A program made the translations under genes and the position numbers. From contig UWYS01000009.1 in the NCBI GenBank assembly GCA_900291925.1, positions 496,001 to 560,000 of the forward strand: a stretch of 64,000 nucleotides of DNA, read 5' to 3'. Below are positions 313-59,498 of the stretch, piece after piece. This stretch comes from Thecaphora thlaspeos (lineage: Eukaryota > Basidiomycota > Ustilaginomycetes > Urocystidales > Glomosporiaceae). Numbering within the stretch: position 1 is the first letter of the stretch; every line of letters begins with the position of its first letter. The notes under the pieces are model-generated. The model ran no database searches. It was not told the origin of the DNA and was given only the letters and a program-made list of their open reading frames with translations.

Positions 313-2586
313 GCCAGTGCCAGAAGTGCTAGAGGCCGCTGCAGGATGGGTTGCGGGGAGGGGCCTTGGGCGCAAGGGAAAAGAGAAACGAGGGCGGAGG
401 GACCGACGTTCGGAAGCGTGCCTATGCCCAGAAGGTGCAAGATCAGCTCGTGGACAGCCGTCTGACTGAGCAAAGTCTCGGCAAGAGGGCGAACGTAGCC
501 ACCAGATTACGGAGCGACGGTCGAAGGGAACGGATCAGCCCTTGCAATGTCTAAGCGCCGAGCGGCGTTCAAGGAAGAAGCGCTGCGAGGTCGCGCTGAT
601 GCGGGAGTGGCGGTCGCGTCCGAGGCGAGCCGGTGTCGAGCCGGTGTCGAGCCGGTGTCGAGCCGGTGCGGTGCGGTGCAATGTGGCGCGAAGGGTTGCG
701 AATTTGGCTCGGGCGACACGGGACAATTCAGGGGAGCGAGGGACCGGTGTCGGATAAGCCGAACAGACGGAGGCGGATGCAATCCGTGAGTAGCGAGGCG
801 CTTTGAGACGAGCAGATTACGAGGGAGTTGGAGGCGGTAGCCGGTGTTAGATCGAGCTAGCGATGCCGACAAGTAGCCGGATGTCGAGTCGATAAACACG
901 GTGCGATAGAGGTCGAGGCGGGCGGACGTGGCTGCGATAGATCCGTGTGGAGAAACGAATGAGGCACCAAAGGACGATGATGGCGGTGTGGAGCCGGGCA
1001 AAGAAGAAGCCGATGGGAGGTCGGTCCACGCGGATGTTCCGATCTCGGACGGAGCCTATCGAGTCGAGTGCAAGCAAAGCACTCGAAAAAAAAAGAGGTC
1101 GGGATAGAAGAGGAGCTGCGGTGGAGGCAGAGGAGGGTGGGTGGTAGGGGAGGGGTCGAAGAAAAGAGGCAAGGATAGAGGACGTAGCTCGGCGAACGGA
1201 AAAGAGGAGCCTCGATAGCGCGATAGCTCGGCGGCGTGTGGTCTAGGATGGTGGTGGTGCGGGATTGGCCAGTCGCGAGGGGGTGACGTTGGTGAGCAAG
1301 CGAGAGCGATGGATGGACAGAGGGGAGGCGCGAGAGACAAAGCCCGCGAAAAAGGGTGACACCGTGCGTGCGGGCGTGCGGGCGCATGCTGGGGAGGGCA
1401 GGCAGGCAGGGCGAGAAAGAGAAAGGAGGGGCTTTCAAGCAAGCCGAGAGGGCGGGTAGGCGAGCGGAGGCTGCGGGTGAGATCAAGGCAGGGCGAAGCG
1501 CAGGGCAAGAGGCCAGGTCGCCTGGAGCAAAAGGGCTGTGCGGAAGCGGAAGCAGGCCAAGGACCGGTCTGGCCCAGAGGCGCGACAGACACGGCCAGTG
1601 AAAAGGACGCGGGTGCGGATGAGGGTGAGGGCGGAGGCGAGGCGCAGAGGCGCAGGCAGGAAGGGAAGAGAAAGCGAAAATGCGGTTGGCAGCGGCACTC
1701 CAACGAGGTCACTGCGCTGCTCCTGCCCTCCCGTAAGCAGGTCAGGTCAGGCCTCCTTTCGAGGTCCGGTCCGCCGCCTATATGCCACATCCTCGTCGTA
1801 CGAGAGGGTCAGGTAAGGCCAGACAGGGACGCTGGAACGTCTGGCGGTACAGCACCAGGAGCCTCTGGTCTTGCCGTTGCCGCTCCGCTCCGCTCTCGAC
1901 CGGCCCGCGTGTGTGCACCCCGCCGATGCGGCAAGTCTCTAACTATATGCTGCTATATGCTCGTGCAGCGTCACGGCCTTCATCCACCCCACCGTCGATC
2001 GATGCTCATCTAACCCTCCAACATCCCCTTTCGAGACCGCCAGCGTCGGCGACGGCTGACAGACCTCTGATGGTGTTGTCAGCACAGCAGATAGCGACCA
2101 CCAAAGGCCGGCGGGGAAGAGGGAGGCCTGAATTCATTTAGGCGACATGCGCAGCGCGCAGGGGGGCAGATCTTGCGTGGCGATCTGCAACTCCGCGACC
2201 GCACGTCCAAGCGTTACCGGCTCGCTTTGACGACGCGGAGACCATCTCCAGGTCACGCGTACTGGCGTACGACGAGTGCTAGGGCAGCCAGGCGGATGAG
2301 TACAAAGGCAAACGGCCGTGTGCGCGGCGGGGAGAAGGTGACCCATGGCTAGTTAGCTGGAACCGGAGCTGTGGCCGGAGCCGAAGCCGGAGCGATGCCT
2401 CCTCCACACGACCGTGCGTTCCCAGGCCGTGCTTGTCCGGGCCCGTGCACGACACCTAAAGCACCTCGCCTTCCCCAGATAGGGCTCCATTGGCTGCTCT
2501 GTTCAATGGAGCACACGATCTCTTCCTCTCAGACGCTCTGATGACATTGCACTAGTGTCACGTCACGACCCGGGTATCCGTCATTT
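313..2586. other. 2.3-kb intergenic region; long strand-biased (purine/pyrimidine) sequence
   Basis: No convincing gene is seen. From about 940 to 1700 the plus strand is strongly purine-rich (the minus strand is CT-rich), as in long 5' leaders of smut-type fungi, and this faces the gene that starts at 298. A short 11-bp tandem repeat (unit ggtgtcgagcc, about three copies) lies near 626-680. Several long open frames here lack homology-like composition and overlap each other in opposite strands, so I treat them as GC-driven. Confidence 0.5.
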
Positions 2587-3790
2587 TTAGAGGCGCTGGC
2601 GTGCGCAGTACCAGGCGATGCGCTGGATCAGGTCGGTGCAAGTCGGCGTGTCGAGCCTATGGCCTACGGGCGGGACGTGGACGAACATCACATCCGTCTT
2701 GCTACGCTTCTCTGCACCCTCCGTCGCGGCGGCAACATCGCCTGCCTTCTGTTTCTGCTCGGTCGCACGACGTTTCGCTTCCGCGAGCGAGTTATAGTAG
2801 ATGAACTCGCAGAGGTAGAGGCCAGCGTTTATAGACGGCTTTACGTCCTGTTCTCGTTGGGATGGCCGCGGCAGTCAAATGGGAAAATGTCTTGAGACGT
2901 CAGGACGCGAGCTTTGAGTCTACAGCAGGGAGAGCGAAGTAGCGACCAACAGCGACCGGAACCCACACTCACCTCGATCCCCTGCTCTTCCAACCACGCG
3001 AGAAGCCCTTGGACATCGATGTCGGTCCTCTGCACCTGCGCAAACTGCTCGTACCCCTTTCCGAAGCCTCTCGTCCTGCCATCCTTCGCCGAAAGGGATT
3101 GCGAGATGGCCTTCTCCGTCTCCTGTGTCGGGTCCATGTCGCCAGCCGCTGGCCCGGTGGCGGCAGAAGTCTGTACGACCGGTGGTAGACAGTCGCCCGC
3201 GTCGGGCAGGGTGTAGCCCGTCTTTCGTGCTAGCGTCTCGCATTCCAGTCCACCCCTCGCGCCAACTCCGACGTGTAGGATGAGGTCCCAGTCTTCTCCC
3301 TCGCTCGCGTTCGGTGGCCTGATAGCGTATCCCTCGGGGTAGGATTTACCCTCCTCGCCCGCGAGATCCGAGGCGGAGTCGCACCGTGAGTCGAACCATA
3401 GCTTTGCATCGGGAGAATAGGGAATCTTGGCGCCGTGCAGACGTGGGATGGTATCGAGGATGGAACCGTAGTGGACGGGGAGCTGAATGCATTGGATGTG
3501 CGCCCGCTGTCTCCCGTCGGAGGCGGCGGTGGTGGTGGTCTGGGAAGAGGGTGGATGAGAGAGGTCGAGACGCCGATCGTGCAGAGGCTTGACGGCTAGC
3601 CAGGAAGGGTTGTTGACCACCGACTGAAATGGCTGTTGGGAGGGGATGGTCCGATAAAGACGAGCCAGCCACAGTGTCAGCCTCCCCTCGAACGTCCGAG
3701 GACACATCTGAACCGCAAATGGGCACGTTCGGAACTCACACCGTAGCCGGTGATCAGGACCTTGATCTCGCTTGGTGGTGTAGGCGCCAT
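2587..3790 (-). CDS. Pyroglutamyl-peptidase I (peptidase family C15), three exons
   Basis: This cytosolic cysteine peptidase removes N-terminal pyroglutamate from peptides. The exons are 3740-3790, 2973-3632 and 2587-2847; both introns have GTGAGT donors and CAG acceptors and keep phase 0. The joined product is about 323 residues, longer than the bacterial enzyme (about 210) because of a low-complexity insert near residues 40-60. Joining exons 1 and 2 restores the N-terminal motif LITGYGPF followed by NNPSWLAV. The likely catalytic triad of the family is present: Glu149 in GLECETLA, Cys250 in NAGLYLCEFIYY, and His294 in MFVHVPP. The start at 3790 directly begins the conserved beta strand. Identification is strong; substrate range cannot be read from sequence. 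Confidence 0.9.
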
Positions 3791-4243
3791 GGTGTCGTCG
3801 GAACGTAGCAGGAGGTGTGAGGCTATGGACGAAGGGAGAAAAGGTGAGGAATCGCATCGTACGCAAGGACAGAGCGACCGACACGGCTCCGTTCGGAATA
3901 TGGGTTTCCGGAGCCGCGCCAGTCGGGTTCGCGCGACGCTGGCCATCCTTGCCCAGTCGTACCTCTGTGCGGACATGTGCGAGGCTCTCGCAGCTGCTAG
4001 TTGATCGACTGCTTCGTCGAGAGGACGCACCGCACGGAAGAGACACCACCACACAGGCCGTCTATGAGCCGTGGCAACGCAAAAGCCATCGTGGAAGAAA
4101 GTAACAGAGAGTAAACCGAAATAAAACCCCACAGAAAAGAGGCACGAAAATCCGCAGGCTGTCGCTCTACCATAGGAGTTGTGCGTATCTGAGAAACTCT
4201 GTTGGCATGTTCGTTGCATACACGTAAGAACGGGACCAAGAAG
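3791..4243. other. Intergenic, 453 bp, between two minus-strand genes
   Basis: The region holds the promoter of the pyroglutamyl-peptidase gene and the 3' end of the Noc1 gene. I see no further gene or clear signal. Confidence 0.5.
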
Positions 4244-50640: not shown

Positions 50641-53600
50641 TCACCATCCCTCTTCTCCTCCGTCCCTCTCCGCGCTCACCCCGTCTTTGACTAGTCCAAA
50701 TCGATCGACGACGAGCTGTACAATGTCGCTCCACTCGTACATCGCTCCGGTGCCAAAGTCTCCGCAGGCCAGCTTCTTCTCTATGGGTCCGACTATCTCG
50801 TAGCCCAGCACCTTCTTGACGAACTCGTTGTGGCGCGAGGTGAGCGGGTGCATGTGCATCAGCGTGTTCATCGCGGGGAAGAGGATCTTTGGCGTCGTCG
50901 AGGAAAGGGCGCGAAGGAAGGAGAGCTGGTGTGCGAGCGCGCGCGTCGGTCGAGCAGGACGAAGACGTAGGTGGGATGTATCAGCTGTGCATCTCGCTTC
51001 TCGCAACAATCCGCCTCTTCTGTGGCAATGTCGACCGCGCCGACTCACCAGCAATCCATCGCAGATCCCTCCGTTGATTTTGGCCAGCGTGTTGGCACTG
51101 CACGGTGCGACCAGCACGATGTCGGCCCACCGGCGCAGCTCGATGTGCAGGACGGGGTCGCCGAGCTTCTTCCAGTCCACCCACTCGTCCTCGTCCGTCC
51201 AGAGATGGACACGGGGCTTAAAGAGCTTGCCCCCCTGGGTTTTGGGCTGCGCGTCGTTCTTGCGCCGCACCGCCGCGAGGTTCTCGGCCGCCAGGTCTTT
51301 CACTTTGTAGGTCCGCGTCTGCCCGGCCTCGTCCCCTTGCTCTTTTTGCTGCGAAGGGTTCTCGGCCGTCGAGTATTCGACGTTGAGGCGTTGCAGCTCG
51401 TCGCGGTCGAAGAAATGAAGCGACGAGGCGGTCGGCACCACTTGGACGCGGACGTTGGCGTGCTGCACCAGCGCTACGACAATCGAGGGAACCTTGACGC
51501 TCGCCACGCTTCCGGTGCACGCCAGCACCACGTGGAGTGGCCGATCCGCGGTGGGAGGCCTGGGAAGCGGCGCATAGGGCGACTGAAGCGAGGCCGGGAC
51601 CTTGTCATCGTCGACCGCATCGTCGTGGCCCGGCGACTCCGACCACGGAGTAGGGAGAGCTTGGCTCTCTTTCGAGCTCATCCTTCCCCGAGCGGGCCGG
51701 ACGGCTGGTTTCTGGGGCGGCGGTGGGCCAGACAGTTCGCGGTGGCCGCTGACTGGCGAGGCGAGCAGGGCGGCCGATTTGGTCGGGGCGGGCGAGCCGT
51801 GGACTGACGGAGCACCTGCGCTGCCGGCACGGCCTAGCATGGGTAGGGAGGCGAGCCGGTCGCCGATTGAAGGCTTGTCTCGGCCACCGTCGGAGCTGGA
51901 CGAATTGGCGCTGGACTGCGGATCTACCGCGGTGGCCCTCAATGGCATGCTGGAGCCAGCCGACCGCATGCTCCTCGCATCACTTTCGTCTTGACGGTCC
52001 TCGCCAACGCCGCTCTTTCCGTCGGCCTCGTCGTCGGCGTTTCTGGGGGGGGCAGCCGAAGCGCTGCTACTCTTCCTGGAACGATTGTTGGACAGGGCTC
52101 TTTTGACCTCGTCGAGCGTCTTGGGGCCATCGGCGCGGCTCTTCTCCCACGTCTCGTTGCTCACGGCCATGCCGGCGCCCATCACCCGGCCGAAGGCCGA
52201 AATGCTCGATCCCATCACGCCCGTGATGACCTTGTTCGAGATGCCGGCCAGATCGCCGATCTCCTGCGTCAGCCGTCCCCTTAGCCGGAGCGGCATCGAC
52301 AGCGCGACGCCCTGGCTGGACAGCTCGCGTTCAGCTACAGAAGAGGCTACCGCGCTGGTGGCCATGCCCGCGCCTGCGGACTGAGCGTTCCTTGACGACG
52401 ACGACGACGCCCCCTCAACGGTAGCCTGCGCCTTCGTGCTCGCAGACGACCCGTCGAAGCCTGGGCGGATAGGGCTGAAGGCGCTGACGCGCGAGGCATC
52501 CAGGCCGAGATCCTTGACGTCGACGTTCTCCAGGAAGGCGACGGCGGCCTGGACGTTGACGAGGCAGTAAGTCGTCTCGCCGCGGACCAGACTCTCGGCA
52601 CGGAACCTCTGAATGTAGAAAAGGTTGCTCGCGAGCTTCGGTGGGTTGGCAGAGACGATCGAATAGATGAGCAGCGGCAGGATCAAGTCCGCGCTCGACT
52701 GCTTCGTCGCGACTTCCTTTTCTTTCGATGGCTTCGGCACTTGCTGCACCTTAGCGTGCTTTCCGACGCCCTGCTCTACAGACTCGGCGGAGTTCTCAGG
52801 CGTCCTTGTTTCCGTCTGTGTCTTTCCAATTGGGCCTGGCCCGGCTTCGTGTTGGTCCTCATCATCTGCGTTTGCGTCTTCCTTGAGCCGGATCCCCGGC
52901 AGTCCGGACAAGCCGTCGACGACGACGCGGTGCGCCGCGACGAGCACCTCGAGCTTTGCCTTTGGCGACCGACAGTTGGGCGACTGGAGCTTCTGCAGCT
53001 CCTCGCCGCACGCAGCGACGACGTCATCTAGCCTCTTCGCGGCGGACTCGGGATAAGCTGCATCTCCACCATCGGCCGGCGCATCGAGCCCGAGGTGGGA
53101 AAGTGAGAGGCCTAGCACGTTGAGGGCTGCGATCCGCGAGGTCAGCGCATCGTCGTGGTATTCGTCCTTGGACGTCGGCGGGCAGAAGATGCGGTCGTAG
53201 ACCTCCTGCGTGACAGCCGACTCCACCACCTCGAGCAGCTCGTCGGTCCGATCCATCGATGCCTGCTGCTCCTGCAGTGAGGCGTTACGGGACTGGATCA
53301 AAGCTGACCCCTTCCTTTCGAGCTTCTCCTGCTCAACGCTTTCGAGCTGGCTGCGGAGGCTGGCAAAGAAGTCCTGAAAGTTTTCCGACATCTCATCCGG
53401 TCCCGCCAGATACGGCACGCTTGCCAGCGCCACGGGCGAGATATCCCTCGTAGGGGAGCGCAGTGACGCGCCGCCGGCGTTGGGCGGCGACCATGATGCC
53501 ATTTGACCCTTCACTACACCTCCAATGGCGCTCTCAACGCCTGGCAAGCTTGCGCCCGACGCCTGGACCGCCGGAGGAACAAACATGGCCGAGAAGCTCG

Positions 53601-55518
53601 AGACGACCTCGATGATGCCTGCGTCGACGCCAGCCCGCCGCAAACGCTCGACGATGCGCCCAGCCATGATCTTGCCGACGGCGCGCAGCACCGACGAGCG
53701 TCGGATGACTCGATCGACGACCCACACGGAGATCGTCCTCTCCGGTCTCGTTGTGGCGGTGGCGGGGCCGGGAACATGTGCCAATGATGCGCCATCCGTC
53801 GCTGTCCTTTCCGGTGTCTTGGCTGCGGCCGTATCGGTCGAGCTTCGATCTGCTGCTTCGTCCGGAGCCCCAAGGTGGCCCTCGGACTGCAACCTTGGAC
53901 CGCTCGATGGCCTGGTCGGAAGCGGAGACTCTGTGCCGGACTGGTCGGCCTCCTTGCCGGTAATGCCGGTCAGCCTAGCGGCTTCCACCAGCTCGGACCC
54001 AAGCGTTTCTTCCGGGCCGCCTTTATTTCGCTCGCGGCCGCTGCCGCCGAACAGGCTGGCAAACGACGCCGAGGCCCTCGATTCTGCGACGTTGAGGCGC
54101 GAGCTGGACTGGGTGCGCGTCCTTGCATGTGAGCGGCGCGACTGCAGCGGCGGCGGGAGGGGGAATTCGGCCCTGTACGCGCCCAGCTCGAAGGTAGGGA
54201 AGGCGAGCGTGGCCATAGACTCGAAGGCGGCGTCGCTCGAGACCGGCAGGGGTGCCAGGCCGTCGAGCATCTCGCGCCTCGATGTGGCGTCTTGGAGGGC
54301 GCCGACCACCGTTTCTGCGCGTGGGACGAAGCTTCTCATGACGGCCTTGAGCGGCCGATCCGCCTTCTCCTCCTCGAGGCCGTCCTGATCCCCCTTGCTC
54401 TTGCCCTCACGAACCCTCAGCTGACCCCTTAGCCCCGACAGAGTGACAAAGGAGGGTGCCGCGCCACTCGGGACGAGGGCATTGGTGAGCGAGGCGGGGG
54501 ACGGTCTGGCCTTGGCCGAAGTGTGCTCATTGAAGATGAGGTGGTCGTGGGCAAACGAAAGGCTGAGGCGCGAGCCGGACGAAAAGACCGAGGGCGGCTC
54601 CCTGGGAAGCAGCATGGTCGCCTCGCCGCTCGCCACCAGCGACGCTATTGTCGCCCACTCGCCCTCGCTGGCCGCTTGGAGGGCCTCGAGGATCATCCAG
54701 CCGGCGCTCTTGTCGTCGAGGCCGAGCTGCCTAGCGCCTTCCTTCATCTCGCTCAGCTCCATCTTGACGAGCGCCAGCGCGGCAGACGCAGCCGCATTCG
54801 ACGATGCCGTCGGCTTGAGCGACTGCGGCCGGCCAGAAAGCTTGGACTCGGAAAGTGTCACCGCCTGCCTGCCCGTGAACGAGGGGAACGACGGCGACGA
54901 GCTGAGGAACGAGCCGACGCCGCTCGGAGGTGGCGGATGGGCCGCTGCGGCCACGGTCGTTGATGCGGTGCTGGGAGACGAGGAGTGGGAGGATGAGGCC
55001 TGTTGCGCCAGGCTGAATTGTGAGCTGTGGGACTGGAAGACAGGGTGGGCGGTGCGGAGGATCGATTGGCGCTGGCGCGGGGCGTAGCTAAGGCTGTGGT
55101 AGGTCTTGCTCAACGACAGCTGTTGCGATGACGGTCCATCCGACGAAGGGGAGGAGGCTGAGTCATGCTGCGATGCGGCTGATGCTGCTGCTGCTGTCGT
55201 GTCGCTTGTCCTGCCCAAGCCGAAGCCGATTGTGGCCCTGCTCCAATCCCTCGGGCTGGTCCCGGGCTGAGCGGATGAGGCCGAAGAGGGCGAAGAGGGC
55301 GAGGGGCTGCACGAGGCAGTGACGACCCCTGCGTCATGTGAGGTGACCCTGAGACGGGTCGTATCGCTAGTCAAAAGCCCATCGGAAGCGCCGGCCCTTC
55401 CGGCGAAGCCGAGATCGATGCGGTCGGGGACGGCGAGGCTGTTGGGAGATGGCGACCGGGTGCGGTCGGGGCCCGTTTGCCCTTGGACAACGAGAGGGTG
55501 GCTAGGGCGGCCCGTCAT
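50641..55518 (-). CDS. VPS9-domain (Rab5 GEF) protein fused to a Hal3/Cab3-type phosphopantothenoylcysteine decarboxylase
   Basis: The exons are 51049-55518 and 50641-50925; the 123-bp intron (GTGAGT...CAG) restores CDGLLLSFLRALSS. The product is 1584 residues. Residues 1-700 are mostly disordered. A VPS9 domain lies at about 755-1000 (DELLEVVESAVTQEVYDRIF, ADLILPLLIYSIVSANPPKL, GETTYCLVNVQAAVAFLENV); this fold activates Rab5-type GTPases on endosomes. After a linker comes a flavoprotein domain (1327-1560) of the Hal3/Coab family: LHVVLACTGSVASVKVPSIV, the catalytic His1458 in LHIELRRWAD, Asn1510 in the PAMN motif, and Cys1544 in LACGDFGTGAM. All three residues needed for PPCDC (the third step of CoA synthesis) are present. 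The frame is continuous between the domains. An internal Met1280 could start a free PPCDC, so two products are possible. Confidence 0.85.
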   Translation of the reverse strand: MTGRPSHPLVVQGQTGPDRTRSPSPNSLAVPDRIDLGFAGRAGASDGLLTSDTTRLRVTSHDAGVVTASCSPSPSSPSSASSAQPGTSPRDWSRATIGFGLGRTSDTTAAAASAASQHDSASSPSSDGPSSQQLSLSKTYHSLSYAPRQRQSILRTAHPVFQSHSSQFSLAQQASSSHSSSPSTASTTVAAAAHPPPPSGVGSFLSSSPSFPSFTGRQAVTLSESKLSGRPQSLKPTASSNAAASAALALVKMELSEMKEGARQLGLDDKSAGWMILEALQAASEGEWATIASLVASGEATMLLPREPPSVFSSGSRLSLSFAHDHLIFNEHTSAKARPSPASLTNALVPSGAAPSFVTLSGLRGQLRVREGKSKGDQDGLEEEKADRPLKAVMRSFVPRAETVVGALQDATSRREMLDGLAPLPVSSDAAFESMATLAFPTFELGAYRAEFPLPPPLQSRRSHARTRTQSSSRLNVAESRASASFASLFGGSGRERNKGGPEETLGSELVEAARLTGITGKEADQSGTESPLPTRPSSGPRLQSEGHLGAPDEAADRSSTDTAAAKTPERTATDGASLAHVPGPATATTRPERTISVWVVDRVIRRSSVLRAVGKIMAGRIVERLRRAGVDAGIIEVVSSFSAMFVPPAVQASGASLPGVESAIGGVVKGQMASWSPPNAGGASLRSPTRDISPVALASVPYLAGPDEMSENFQDFFASLRSQLESVEQEKLERKGSALIQSRNASLQEQQASMDRTDELLEVVESAVTQEVYDRIFCPPTSKDEYHDDALTSRIAALNVLGLSLSHLGLDAPADGGDAAYPESAAKRLDDVVAACGEELQKLQSPNCRSPKAKLEVLVAAHRVVVDGLSGLPGIRLKEDANADDEDQHEAGPGPIGKTQTETRTPENSAESVEQGVGKHAKVQQVPKPSKEKEVATKQSSADLILPLLIYSIVSANPPKLASNLFYIQRFRAESLVRGETTYCLVNVQAAVAFLENVDVKDLGLDASRVSAFSPIRPGFDGSSASTKAQATVEGASSSSSRNAQSAGAGMATSAVASSVAERELSSQGVALSMPLRLRGRLTQEIGDLAGISNKVITGVMGSSISAFGRVMGAGMAVSNETWEKSRADGPKTLDEVKRALSNNRSRKSSSASAAPPRNADDEADGKSGVGEDRQDESDARSMRSAGSSMPLRATAVDPQSSANSSSSDGGRDKPSIGDRLASLPMLGRAGSAGAPSVHGSPAPTKSAALLASPVSGHRELSGPPPPQKPAVRPARGRMSSKESQALPTPWSESPGHDDAVDDDKVPASLQSPYAPLPRPPTADRPLHVVLACTGSVASVKVPSIVVALVQHANVRVQVVPTASSLHFFDRDELQRLNVEYSTAENPSQQKEQGDEAGQTRTYKVKDLAAENLAAVRRKNDAQPKTQGGKLFKPRVHLWTDEDEWVDWKKLGDPVLHIELRRWADIVLVAPCSANTLAKINGGICDGLLVSRRGRHCHRRGGLLREARCTADTSHLRLRPARPTRALAHQLSFLRALSSTTPKILFPAMNTLMHMHPLTSRHNEFVKKVLGYEIVGPIEKKLACGDFGTGAMYEWSDIVQLVVDRFGLVKDGVSAERDGGEEGW

Positions 55519-56268: not shown

Positions 56269-59200
56269 ATGCCGTTGCTGGTCTCGCTCCGCCAGTCACC
56301 CACTTACCTCTATCTCAAGGTCTACCTTATATGCTCCCTCGTCTCCATCTTCAAGACGGCGCCCGTATCGTCCCGTCTTGACAATGGCAAGTCGATCCTT
56401 CTGCTCCGGACCGGTACCGCTTCTCGATGCCAGCAGGCCAGCACCACCGCTTCTACCGTTACCGACGGACGTGGCCCACCCTCGCGTGCCCGCATCCTCC
56501 TCGACAGATGGAGGCAAAGGGCGCAGGATATGGCCGAGATCGGGCGACTGATGGAGAGAGACAATCGTGACGTTGTCAGCTACCCCGAGCTGCGATGGGA
56601 TGCCACTGTGCGCCGGTCTTCGCAGCTGCATCGCGAAGAGAGGCGTTTCGTCGAGAGTCGCAGACGCCTGATGTCGTCCGAGGGGACCGACGCTCTTCAC
56701 CGCTTCCTCGGTCTGCCCGCATCGGAGCGCGTCCATCCCGCCGACGTCCCGCTCGTCGCCCTCGGAGGCTCCGGCGGTGGCTATCGCGCCACCTACGGCT
56801 TCGCCGGCTTTCTCGAGGCGTCTAAGCGGACCGAGCTCTGGGACTGCCTGACGTGGACGGCCGGCGTCAACGGGAGCTGCTGGACGCTGGCGGCCTACTA
56901 CACCATCGCCTACCACGACACGCGCAAGCTGGTCAAGCACTTCATTGCCACCGCCGGCGAGCTCACGCACCCGATGAGCGTCGAAGCGCTCGACACGGTG
57001 GCGCGCAGCAGCAGGGGCGTCTACTTCCTCCTCGCGCCGCTCCTGCGCAAGGCGCAAGGCGGGCGGGTTGGACTCGGCATCATGGACCTCTACGGGACGC
57101 TGACGACCAGCTACCAGTTCCTCTCGCGGGAGCCGCGCGCCCGCCTGAGCCGCGCCACGTTCCAGCTTTCCAAGATCTGGCGGCGCTCGGGCCTCGACCG
57201 GGGGCTGGAGCCGATGGCCCTCTTCACAGCCGTCCGGGTGGCACCACACGACTCGCCCGGCGTCAAGCCGCACAATGACTCGTCCATGAGCAAGGGACGG
57301 CCTCCGCAACGGGCGCTGGCGCAGCACCAGACTTCGACCTCGGCTTCGAGCCCGCCGACCTCGACTAACGTCGCCGAAGCCCACCGGCATGGCAGCAGCG
57401 CGAGGGCACCAACGGATGCAATCGCCATCGCCGCCGCCGACGCGGTCAGTGACGCCACCGACGTTCTCGCCCTGCCGGACCCAAAGGGCTACTTTCAATG
57501 GTTTGAGATCTCGCCGCTCGAGGTTGGCAGCTCCGGCGTCGAAGCCTTCATCCCGACCTGGTCCTGGGGCCGGGCTTTTGTTTCGGGACGGTCGCTGCAC
57601 CGCCTTCTGGAGCAATCGATGTCGCTGTTGCTTGGGCAGTGCACCAGCGCTCCCGCCGGGCCGCCCACCGGCTACGTCTCGGCGCTGCTGGCGTCGCTGC
57701 CGAGGGGCACCGTCATGAGCCGTCTGCTGATGTTGTTCAATCACTTCATCCGGCTGAAGCGCTGGGAGAGGCGGTGGGGCATTCCCATCCGCGCCGGCGA
57801 CGAGCCGAACCCGTTCTACGGCCTCAACACGCGGCCCGACCAGCGGACGACCGGCGAGGTTGGCAAAGGCAACGCCGGAGGAGTAGAGACGGACCGACGC
57901 GACGAGCGAGCCGGTGCCGGTGCCGCACAGGTTCTCGGAATCGGCATCGACATCCTGCACCTACCTCGACTGCAGCGGCTGATGGCGCGCCAGGCTTCGC
58001 GCTCTGCCGCCGGCTCATCCGCGACGTCAACAGACCTGCGAGGTGCAGCACTGGCCAAGCTGGCTCGTAGAATCCTCTGCCGTGCGGAGCTGGACGAGTT
58101 GGAGGCGTTGCAAGCTTGGTTGCTGCTGTCAGACGGATCTGACGCGAGACGGGCGGAGAGCAAGCTGGTCCGCTCCCTGGCGGTGCGCTGGTGCGTCAAG
58201 GAGGCGGCCTATAAGGCCCTCTACCCGACCCACGTGGTGTCGTGGAAGGACCTTTGCCTCGAGAAGCCACTCTCGGTTGACACGTCGGACCATGAGGATT
58301 TGGTAGCCAAGGAGGAGAGCGGGCATAGGAGCAGGAAGCCGCAGCTCCGTCTGTCCGACGAGTGGCTTACCGTGAACGCAGATGCAAAGGAGGAGACACA
58401 GGCGGGCGTGTTTAGCACCCGCACGGGCGGTGGCGGCGTTGTGCCGAAGCTCCACGCCAGCGTCTCGCATGATGGAGACTACGTCGTCGCCAACGTCTTG
58501 GCACTCCGGGGCGAGGACGCAAGGATGCGCTCGCAGGACTGGGAACAGAGCATCGACATACCCTCTCTCCGAGCTTCTGCCTGTGACGACTCTAGACCTC
58601 GCGCCACTTCGTCGCCCTCGCTGCCGGCCACCAGCAATCCAGGCACTCGCCACAGCGACGCGCCTACCTACATCGCTGAAAGCACAACGTCTGACGCCAT
58701 CACCAGCGATTCAGACCACCACCACGCGGTGACATGGGAGACATCGTCGCGCATTCGCCTCATGGACAGTGGGATGTCCAACAACCTACCCAATCATGTC
58801 CTCGCACGCAAGGAGAGGCGGGCGGACGTCATCATCGCGTTCGACGCCTCCTCGGACGTGCAAAAGGGGTCGGCTTTGCAGCGTATCCGCAACTTTGCCG
58901 ACGACTGCGGCATCCGGCTACAGGTGCGTCCTACTACCACCACGACGTCGGAGCAGCGTGCGACGAAAGAGGGTGGGGAAGGCGAAACAGCGAGAGAGGT
59001 AGAGGAGAGGTAGAGGAGCGGTTCAGGGATAGACACTCACAGAGGATCGACGCTTGGAGGATTAGGAAGGCTGATGACGTTCCGATGGAAGGGAAGGATA
59101 TCGGCAGTGGTGGCGAAGAGCGATCGCCGGATATACGTTTCGTCTACTGCCCACTCCTGCCCAACTCGATCCAACCAGACTTTGATCCGTCGGTGAGATT

Positions 59201-59498
59201 TCACTCTGCTTACCCACTTGTGCCTTCCCTGTTGCCGTGCTGGATGTTGGATGCTGACTCCATTCTCCTTGTCGTTTCTCATCCTGTCCTGCGACCTTCC
59301 TCGTTGGCTTCACGTCAGACGGCCAGCTTTTTCAACTCTTATAATCTCGTCTGGACGCCGGAGCAGGTCGAGACGTTGATCCGCACCTTGTCCGCCAACC
59401 TGGAGCGACACGCCATCCATACGATCCGAGAGACGATCCGAGAGGCGTACGAAGCCAAGAAAGTCGTTCGGCTCGCTAAGGAGCGCGATCGCACCTAA
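56269..59498 (+). CDS. cPLA2-family protein with an embedded AcpS/Ppt2-type phosphopantetheinyl transferase domain
   Basis: The exons are 56269-58923, 59043-59192 and 59319-59498 (phase 0), giving 994 residues. The cPLA2 core is split. Its first half has ALGGSGGGYRATYGFAGFLE (Arg173 of the oxyanion site) and WTAGVNGSCWTLAAYY, where the usual nucleophile of GxSGS is Asn201. Its end has IRLMDSGMSNNLPNHVLARK (Asp833), FVYCPLLPN and NSYNLVWTPEQVE. Between them, at about 555-747, sits a holo-ACP synthase domain: LGIGIDILHLPRL (metal Asp561), the RILCRAELDELE segment, RWCVKEAAYKALYP (Glu645, Lys649) and ASVSHDGDYVVANVLAL. The key AcpS residues are kept, so this domain should transfer 4'-phosphopantetheine from CoA to a carrier protein, possibly mitochondrial ACP. 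A hydrophobic stretch near 12-28 may target or anchor it. The start is in good context (cgcccgccATG). Confidence 0.88.

Follow-up and report, generated by a model that had tools for sequence, protein, structure and literature searches.

A Ppt2-type phosphopantetheinyl transferase embedded in a cPLA2-like protein of Thecaphora thlaspeos and other smut fungi

We analyzed a stretch of 64,000 nucleotides from Thecaphora thlaspeos (contig UWYS01000009.1 of assembly GCA_900291925.1, positions 496,001 to 560,000), referred to here as the window. One open frame of 914 codons on its forward strand (56269–59013) encodes a protein related to cytosolic phospholipase A2 (cPLA2), in which an AcpS-type phosphopantetheinyl transferase (PPTase) separates two parts of the cPLA2 core. 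We refer to the cPLA2 body as the host and to the PPTase as the guest. We think it fairly likely that, in Ustilaginales, the guest is the Ppt2-type holo-acyl carrier protein (holo-ACP) synthase that activates mitochondrial ACP, carried in a loop of the cPLA2-like host.

Architecture and conservation of the fusion

Both parts of the frame match Pfam profiles above the respective cut-offs: PLA2_B (PF01735) at residues 163–327 (49.3 bits, cut-off 23) and ACPS (PF01648) at residues 557–661 (33.3 bits, cut-off 25). A preliminary description, made from the letters of the window alone, had read one frame in the order cPLA2 core, AcpS, cPLA2 core, had called this a domain insertion and not an end-to-end fusion, and had proposed profile searches as a check; the matches agree with it, as does an alignment with human cPLA2 (Protein Data Bank entry 1cjy) that flanks the ACPS domain. 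In this alignment, human residues 144–239, 343–396, and 521–579 pair with window residues 108–212, 408–461, and 808–863, the first stretch alone being significant (i-Evalues of 140 and 0.11 for the second and third). With human cPLA2 matched on both sides, the ACPS domain falls after the nucleophile region and before the catalytic Asp, at the place of human residues 396–521, which we take to be the cap or lid region. The insertion occurs at a single point, between ...NPFYG and WE..(G)R.

The motifs GIGIDI, WCVKEAAYK, and SHDG begin at residues 557, 641, and 733, and the metal-binding Asp/Glu and Lys residues of AcpS are present as D561, K644–E645, and K649, which bears out the earlier assignment to the AcpS/Ppt2 type. 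Bacterial AcpS models of NCBIfam also match the insert, with scores below their cut-offs. Judged by its motifs, the guest is an intact AcpS/Ppt2-type PPTase and is predicted to be active. Structure prediction, likewise proposed as a check, yields both an AcpS fold and a cPLA2 fold for the closest relative, P0002, with low confidence at the linkers (479–518 and 708–789).

Reading the insert as an intron was rejected: it contains no stop codon, its GC content at third codon positions is 0.76 versus 0.83 in the N-terminal flank, it lies in predicted coding sequence in 21 other smut-type proteins, and the donor pattern fits just two sites in 57760–58760, both at the codons of WCVKEAAYK. An assembly chimera of two genes was rejected because the two parts are joined in the same way in records from ten named species. 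The frame had been described as continuous over 56269–59498; it is indeed open to 59013, but it stops there, ahead of the conserved C-terminus, and homologous coding continues to 59498 in another frame and with an intron (Table 1). The stop at 59013 may be due to genuine decay, to an intron, or to a fault in the assembly.

Table 1. Features of the fusion gene in the window (positions within the 64,000 nucleotides; residues of the 914-residue protein unless noted otherwise).
Feature	Position	Strand	Basis
Continuous open frame, 914 amino acids, cPLA2-like with embedded AcpS-type PPTase	56269..59013	+	Open reading frame and Pfam
Hydrophobic acid-free N-terminal segment, residues 10–33, proposed membrane/mitochondrial targeting signal	56296..56367	+	Invariant columns; function inferred
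cPLA2 body before insert, residues 108–518	56590..57822	+	Pfam, 1cjy alignment
Oxyanion/Arg motif GSGGGYR	56767..56787	+	Within cPLA2 body before insert
Codon AAC, Asn201, at cPLA2 nucleophile position	56869..56871	+	Comparison with relatives
Inserted AcpS/Ppt2-type PPTase, residues 554–752	57928..58524	+	Pfam; fold in relative P0002
GIGIDI with metal-binding Asp, residue 561	57937..57954	+	Motif
WCVKEAAYK with Lys-Glu and second Lys	58189..58215	+	Motif
SHDG motif of PPTase	58465..58476	+	Motif
Variable low-complexity linker to cPLA2 body, residues 753–822	58525..58734	+	Alignment; predicted local distance difference test (pLDDT) <50 at 708–789 in P0002
cPLA2 body after insert, residues 823–880, catalytic Asp833 in DSGMSNN (58765–58785)	58735..58908	+	
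Stop closing main frame, within short tandem duplication (58990–59015)	59011..59013	+	
C-terminal coding homologous to P0002, PDIRFVYCPLLPN...DFDPS, out of main frame	59025..59192	+	By reading
Proposed intron GTGAGA...CAG, 126 bp, phase 0	59193..59318	+	By reading and match to P0002
Last exon, TASFFNSYNLVWTPEQ...RDRT stop	59319..59498	+	Homology to P0002 C-terminus

In smut fungi, this fused form is the norm. The whole frame, used as a protein query, had 172 matches, of which the best 120 were listed, and revealed the fusion in Pseudozyma flocculosa (64% identity over 100%), P. hubeiensis, Melanopsichium, Testicularia, Ustilago trichophora, U. hordei, Sporisorium scitamineum, S. reilianum, and S. 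graminicola; that of Kalmanozyma, whose protein model lacks the N-terminal part, was found by a search with the insert only. The preliminary description, which knew of no such arrangement, was mistaken here, as these ten named smut species have it and database records carry both Pfam labels. In an alignment of the cPLA2 body from 103 family members (18 of 121 proteins were dropped as partial or redundant), the gap between the columns flanking the insert spans 197–303 residues in 21 smut-type rows and 189–239 in 11 non-smut rows; it is 100 residues or fewer in 71 of the 103 rows and 19 or fewer in 24. Residues were compared in a census of 50 of the 121 proteins plus P0242, and four further smut-type rows were checked by motif. 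Motifs of the GIGIDI, WCVKEAAYK, and SHDG type are kept in all 22 smut-type proteins (P0001–P0020, P0111, and P0242).

Most smut-type rows also share a strongly conserved N-terminus, MPxLxxLRQSPTYLYxKVY...APVSSR. The first 36 residues lack Asp and Glu in 19 of 20 smut-type proteins (the remaining one was unscored), in 10 of the 11 proteins with degenerate inserts described below (P0056 has one Glu), and in 11 of 16 insert-free proteins (five with odd starts were unscored); elsewhere, 2.9% of 36-residue windows are free of both (1095/37485). Such a conserved acid-free N-terminus may be a mitochondrial or membrane signal, and the suggestion in the preliminary description that the fusion places carrier-protein activation at a membrane may hold.

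The 20.6-Mb genome has three ACPS profile matches: a C-terminal domain of the fatty acid synthase (FAS), downstream of its ketoacyl-synthase domains (L001); an Sfp-type PPTase with AASDHPPT_N beside ACPS; and the embedded insert. A search for a second, free Ppt2 gene had been proposed as a further check; no other AcpS/Ppt2-type PPTase was found in this genome by a search that scored the best candidates only, and a free Tilletia Ppt2 used as query matches the embedded insert alone. A gene for the presumed client, mitochondrial ACP, is present, with LGLDSLDAVEVV and a basic start. PLA2_B has two matches in the genome, the fusion and, on contig C2, a full-length protein of a different type. Six inserts were searched against 5.8 billion proteins, giving 936 matches of which the best 120 were listed. 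Within these 120, the two best, P0122 and P0123, read as fragments of the fusion; the other named matches come from Tilletia (four), rusts, other basidiomycetes, and a few early-diverging fungi, and none from Ustilaginales. The named relatives of the insert in this list are free Ppt2-like proteins, in line with the earlier remark that fungal Ppt2 is normally free.

Some observations concern the surroundings of these genes. The Sfp-type PPTase is fused too: positions 624–4034 of locus L018 (contig C6, about 1,041,620–1,045,030) form one 1136-residue frame in the order indoleamine 2,3-dioxygenase (PF01231; profile run on the later part only, positions 293–411 of 412), low-complexity linker, AASDHPPT_N, ACPS, and all three ACPS matches of the genome sit in larger frames (FAS, L018, and the cPLA2 fusion). 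The divergent neighbor of the fusion gene (50641–55518, reverse strand) is a 1625-residue frame with VPS9 and Flavoprotein (PF02441) domains, the latter reading as phosphopantothenoylcysteine decarboxylase/Hal3-like; the position of a likely coenzyme A (CoA) pathway gene beside a CoA-using PPTase may be due to chance or to a shared promoter. In P0134, ACPS is joined to a phospholipase/carboxylesterase-like Abhydrolase_2 domain in one protein; this may be a model of adjacent genes, as may Rhizopus P0243 and P0244. No relative was found in viral contigs.

Losses in host and guest, and the history of the insertion

The preliminary description had also reported a cPLA2 core with its catalytic Asp. 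The Asp (D833) is present, as is the GGG/R oxyanion motif (GSGGGYR), but the nucleophile Ser is replaced by Asn. Among the best 120 of 172 relatives, this position is Ser in 119 and Gly in one; where relatives have GVSGS, the window reads GVNGS and thus departs from the GxSGS pattern of a catalytic Ser. Because this motif has no Ser, we class the window protein as a cPLA2-like homolog and not as an active cPLA2, and because the nucleophile is missing, phospholipase activity in this fungus is doubtful. The host in this genome is probably no longer a phospholipase and would act only as carrier and scaffold of the guest. The Gly is found in P0098, an insert-free relative, and is a second loss of the nucleophile.

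Four further changes in the window (P317A, P447L, L466P, and N505I) fall in columns where the other rows are at least 98% identical. The total of five compares with none in 15 and two in one of 17 other smut-type rows; the partial, long-branched smut-type row P0111 has 16, insert-free rows have at most six, and elsewhere P0066 has six and P0026 and P0048 five each, which places the window joint third of 51 rows. Since other rows reach 5 to 16 changes, the five changes alone do not prove decay. The relative-rate excess of the window body over P0002 was not significant (21 vs 13 changes, p 0.23), and the insert showed no excess (4 vs 4); relaxed selection on the window body was considered and, given that p value and the rank among 51 rows, is not shown. 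AcpS enzymes are trimers, and the insert may trimerize the host protein.

Eleven non-smut proteins carry the insert at the same site with neither metal ligand. Eight come from ascomycetes (Stachybotrys, two; Paramyrothecium; Ilyonectria; Thelonectria; Dactylonectria, two; and Mariannaea), and the other three fall among ascomycete rows in a tree of the body. The metal-binding Asp is replaced by Ser in ten and Gly in one, the Glu by Ile, Met, Ala, Val, Ser, or Thr. With the 44 insert columns that are invariant across 18 smut-type rows as reference (P0002 numbering), none of the 11 keeps D528, R604, E609, K630, K661, or Y696, and all keep G526, L535, A565, E573, K608, A610, A614, W623, and P684. 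ACPS scored above the Pfam cut-off in one of nine such proteins scanned (P0027) and gave no match at E ≤ 1 in three. The one protein modeled, Stachybotrys P0022, has an AcpS fold (TM-score 0.66–0.82 to the AcpS chains listed; pLDDT 60.3 on average, and 81–96 in 14 of 15 blocks of 531–680). The cPLA2 Ser, Asp, and GGG/R are kept in the proteins with such inserts. Catalysis has very probably been lost in these inserts, and their AcpS fold seems to be retained. Function appears to have been lost from guest and host in separate lineages. Two of these proteins, P0026 and P0050, are labeled phosphopantetheinyl transferase (holo-ACP synthase) at their source despite the loss of both ligands, which is likely a misannotation and a caution for annotation. 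In Fusarium and other family members, the insert is absent.

Trees were built for body and insert. The body tree comprised 75 rows (28 of 103 removed as near-copies), with the insert columns excluded, in a quick search without outgroup. Smut-type rows form one side of a branch (SH-aLRT 99), P0111 is on a very long branch, and the 11 degenerate-insert rows require three changes among insert-free rows, at least two of them on starred branches. We read this as one gain followed by several losses and not as repeated gains at one site, a distinction between gain and loss that the tree itself cannot make. In the insert tree, the 11 degenerate inserts group together (100/99) within those of smuts, with Testicularia as their sister (93/83), and such nesting would mean transfer from a smut. 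We do not accept this tree as proof of transfer: a tree holding the smut inserts together was not rejected (approximately unbiased test, p 0.154), support is weak (84/39) for the branch that separates the inserts as a whole from the free Ppt2 proteins, and the set contained no ascomycete free PptB.

A joint account of these patterns, tentative and on balance somewhat doubtful, is that a basidiomycete-type Ppt2 was inserted once into a cPLA2 gene, giving a bifunctional protein whose halves then took reciprocal paths. In smuts, the active guest would have replaced the free essential enzyme, even where the host nucleophile was lost, as here. The gene would have reached ascomycetes by transfer from a smut, and there the guest, having lost both metal ligands, would have been kept as a pseudo-PPTase fold, perhaps trimerizing the phospholipase or sensing ACP or CoA, or deleted several times.

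Proposed role and alternatives

In the mechanism we propose for Ustilaginales, the guest domain sits in a loop of the group IV cPLA2-like host, with the dyad's nucleophile before it and the dyad's Asp after it, and would move 4'-phosphopantetheine from CoA to mitochondrial ACP, a step on which fatty acid and lipoate synthesis in mitochondria would depend. The host body, together with the conserved hydrophobic N-terminus, would bring the guest to mitochondria or to a membrane. What the analysis shows is a conserved architecture, a guest with intact motifs, no other AcpS-type match in this genome, and a mitochondrial ACP gene; the guest's activity and location we infer. Several points weigh against this proposal. 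The genome also encodes an Sfp-type PPTase, which might serve mitochondrial ACP, as the single human enzyme does (PMC4659657). The N-terminal segment looks as much like a signal anchor as a presequence. In Melampsora, Sporobolomyces, and Botryobasidium, free Ppt2 starts almost at the domain, with no obvious presequence, so the mitochondrial role of the basidiomycete enzyme itself rests on homology. The frame break near the C-terminus could be a fault in the assembly, or the gene as a whole could be decaying in this strain. The genome search covered best candidates, and, with the best 120 of 936 matches listed and many records nameless, absence of a free Ppt2 from other smuts is not proved.

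In one alternative, which we regard as unlikely, the Sfp-type PPTase would activate all carriers, and the folded insert would serve the cPLA2-like protein in a structural or regulatory capacity. Noncatalytic use seems to exist in the family, as P0022 has an AcpS fold without metal ligands and the insert is kept in all 11 non-smut proteins that lost them; nevertheless, all 22 smut-type proteins retain the catalytic motifs, and the smut-invariant columns include the very Asp and Glu kept in none of the 11. About equally improbable is that the fusion matters for encoding only, with the PPTase either made separately from an internal start or cut out by proteolysis at disordered linkers. Both linkers have low confidence in the P0002 model, and by reading, Met483 opens a basic stretch ahead of the insert, but the same Met and stretch occur in most insert-free members aligned and so did not evolve for PPTase release. 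Slightly less probable still is a decaying pseudogene in the window that carries the PPTase along. The Asn at the nucleophile, the stop ahead of the conserved C-terminus, and the five conserved-column changes (0–2 in 16 of 17 other smut-type rows) speak for decay. Against it, no stop interrupts the PPTase region, whose motifs are intact, the N-terminal body retains 75% identity to P0002, conserved coding follows downstream, and the genome has no other AcpS-type match; moreover, the five changes are not extreme and the rate excess is not significant.

If the proposed PPTase role holds, smut fungi have swapped a free mitochondrial PPTase for one embedded in a lipid enzyme, and carrier-protein activation is physically tied to a phospholipase-like fold. 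The family also offers a natural experiment, with both motif sets intact (other smut-type proteins), the guest intact and the host probably dead (the window), the guest dead and the host motifs intact (11 proteins), or no insert at all (Fusarium and others).

Comparison with known systems

The domain pair is already known from database records and seems undescribed in the literature as far as searched: no description of a PPTase inside a phospholipase was found in open-license full text of PubMed Central (PMC), and the word phospholipase is absent from the available text of PMC13208730, on Ustilaginaceae. New are the fusion as the sole Ppt2-type copy found in this genome, the apparent reciprocal loss in guest and host, and the presence in two phyla.

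Fungal Ppt2 and PptB load 4'-phosphopantetheine on mitochondrial ACP (PMC4659657; PMC3360786). The mitochondrial PPTase is essential in Aspergillus fumigatus and Candida albicans and a proposed antifungal target, and C. albicans Ppt2 has 135 residues (PMC4659657). The window protein shares with the enzymes of Saccharomyces cerevisiae, C. albicans, and A. fumigatus the AcpS-type domain, the metal-binding Asp, the Lys-Glu pair, and the mitochondrial ACP as client, whereas its domain lies inside a cPLA2-like protein; our alignment contained no ascomycete or yeast Ppt2 sequence.

An N-terminal C2 domain is a feature of vertebrate group IV cPLA2 members. With fungal cPLA2s (Sporothrix SSPLA2 and Aspergillus PlaA) and the human structures 1cjy and 5izr, the window protein shares the GGG/R motif, the catalytic Asp, and the fold seen in P0002; it differs in the PPTase between nucleophile and Asp, in the Asn nucleophile, and in that Pfam found no N-terminal C2 domain. 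A mitochondrial location of fungal PlaA was considered; the text examined in the literature searches has no statement on its localization. SSPLA2 has the nucleophile motif GVSGS and no C2 domain (PMC2694196).

Fungal type I FAS is another large enzyme that includes a PPTase of the ACPS family, which acts on the enzyme's own ACP domain (PMC4659657). The PPTase of FAS is C-terminal, whereas the one in the window protein interrupts a different fold, and Pfam detected no ACP domain in the window protein.
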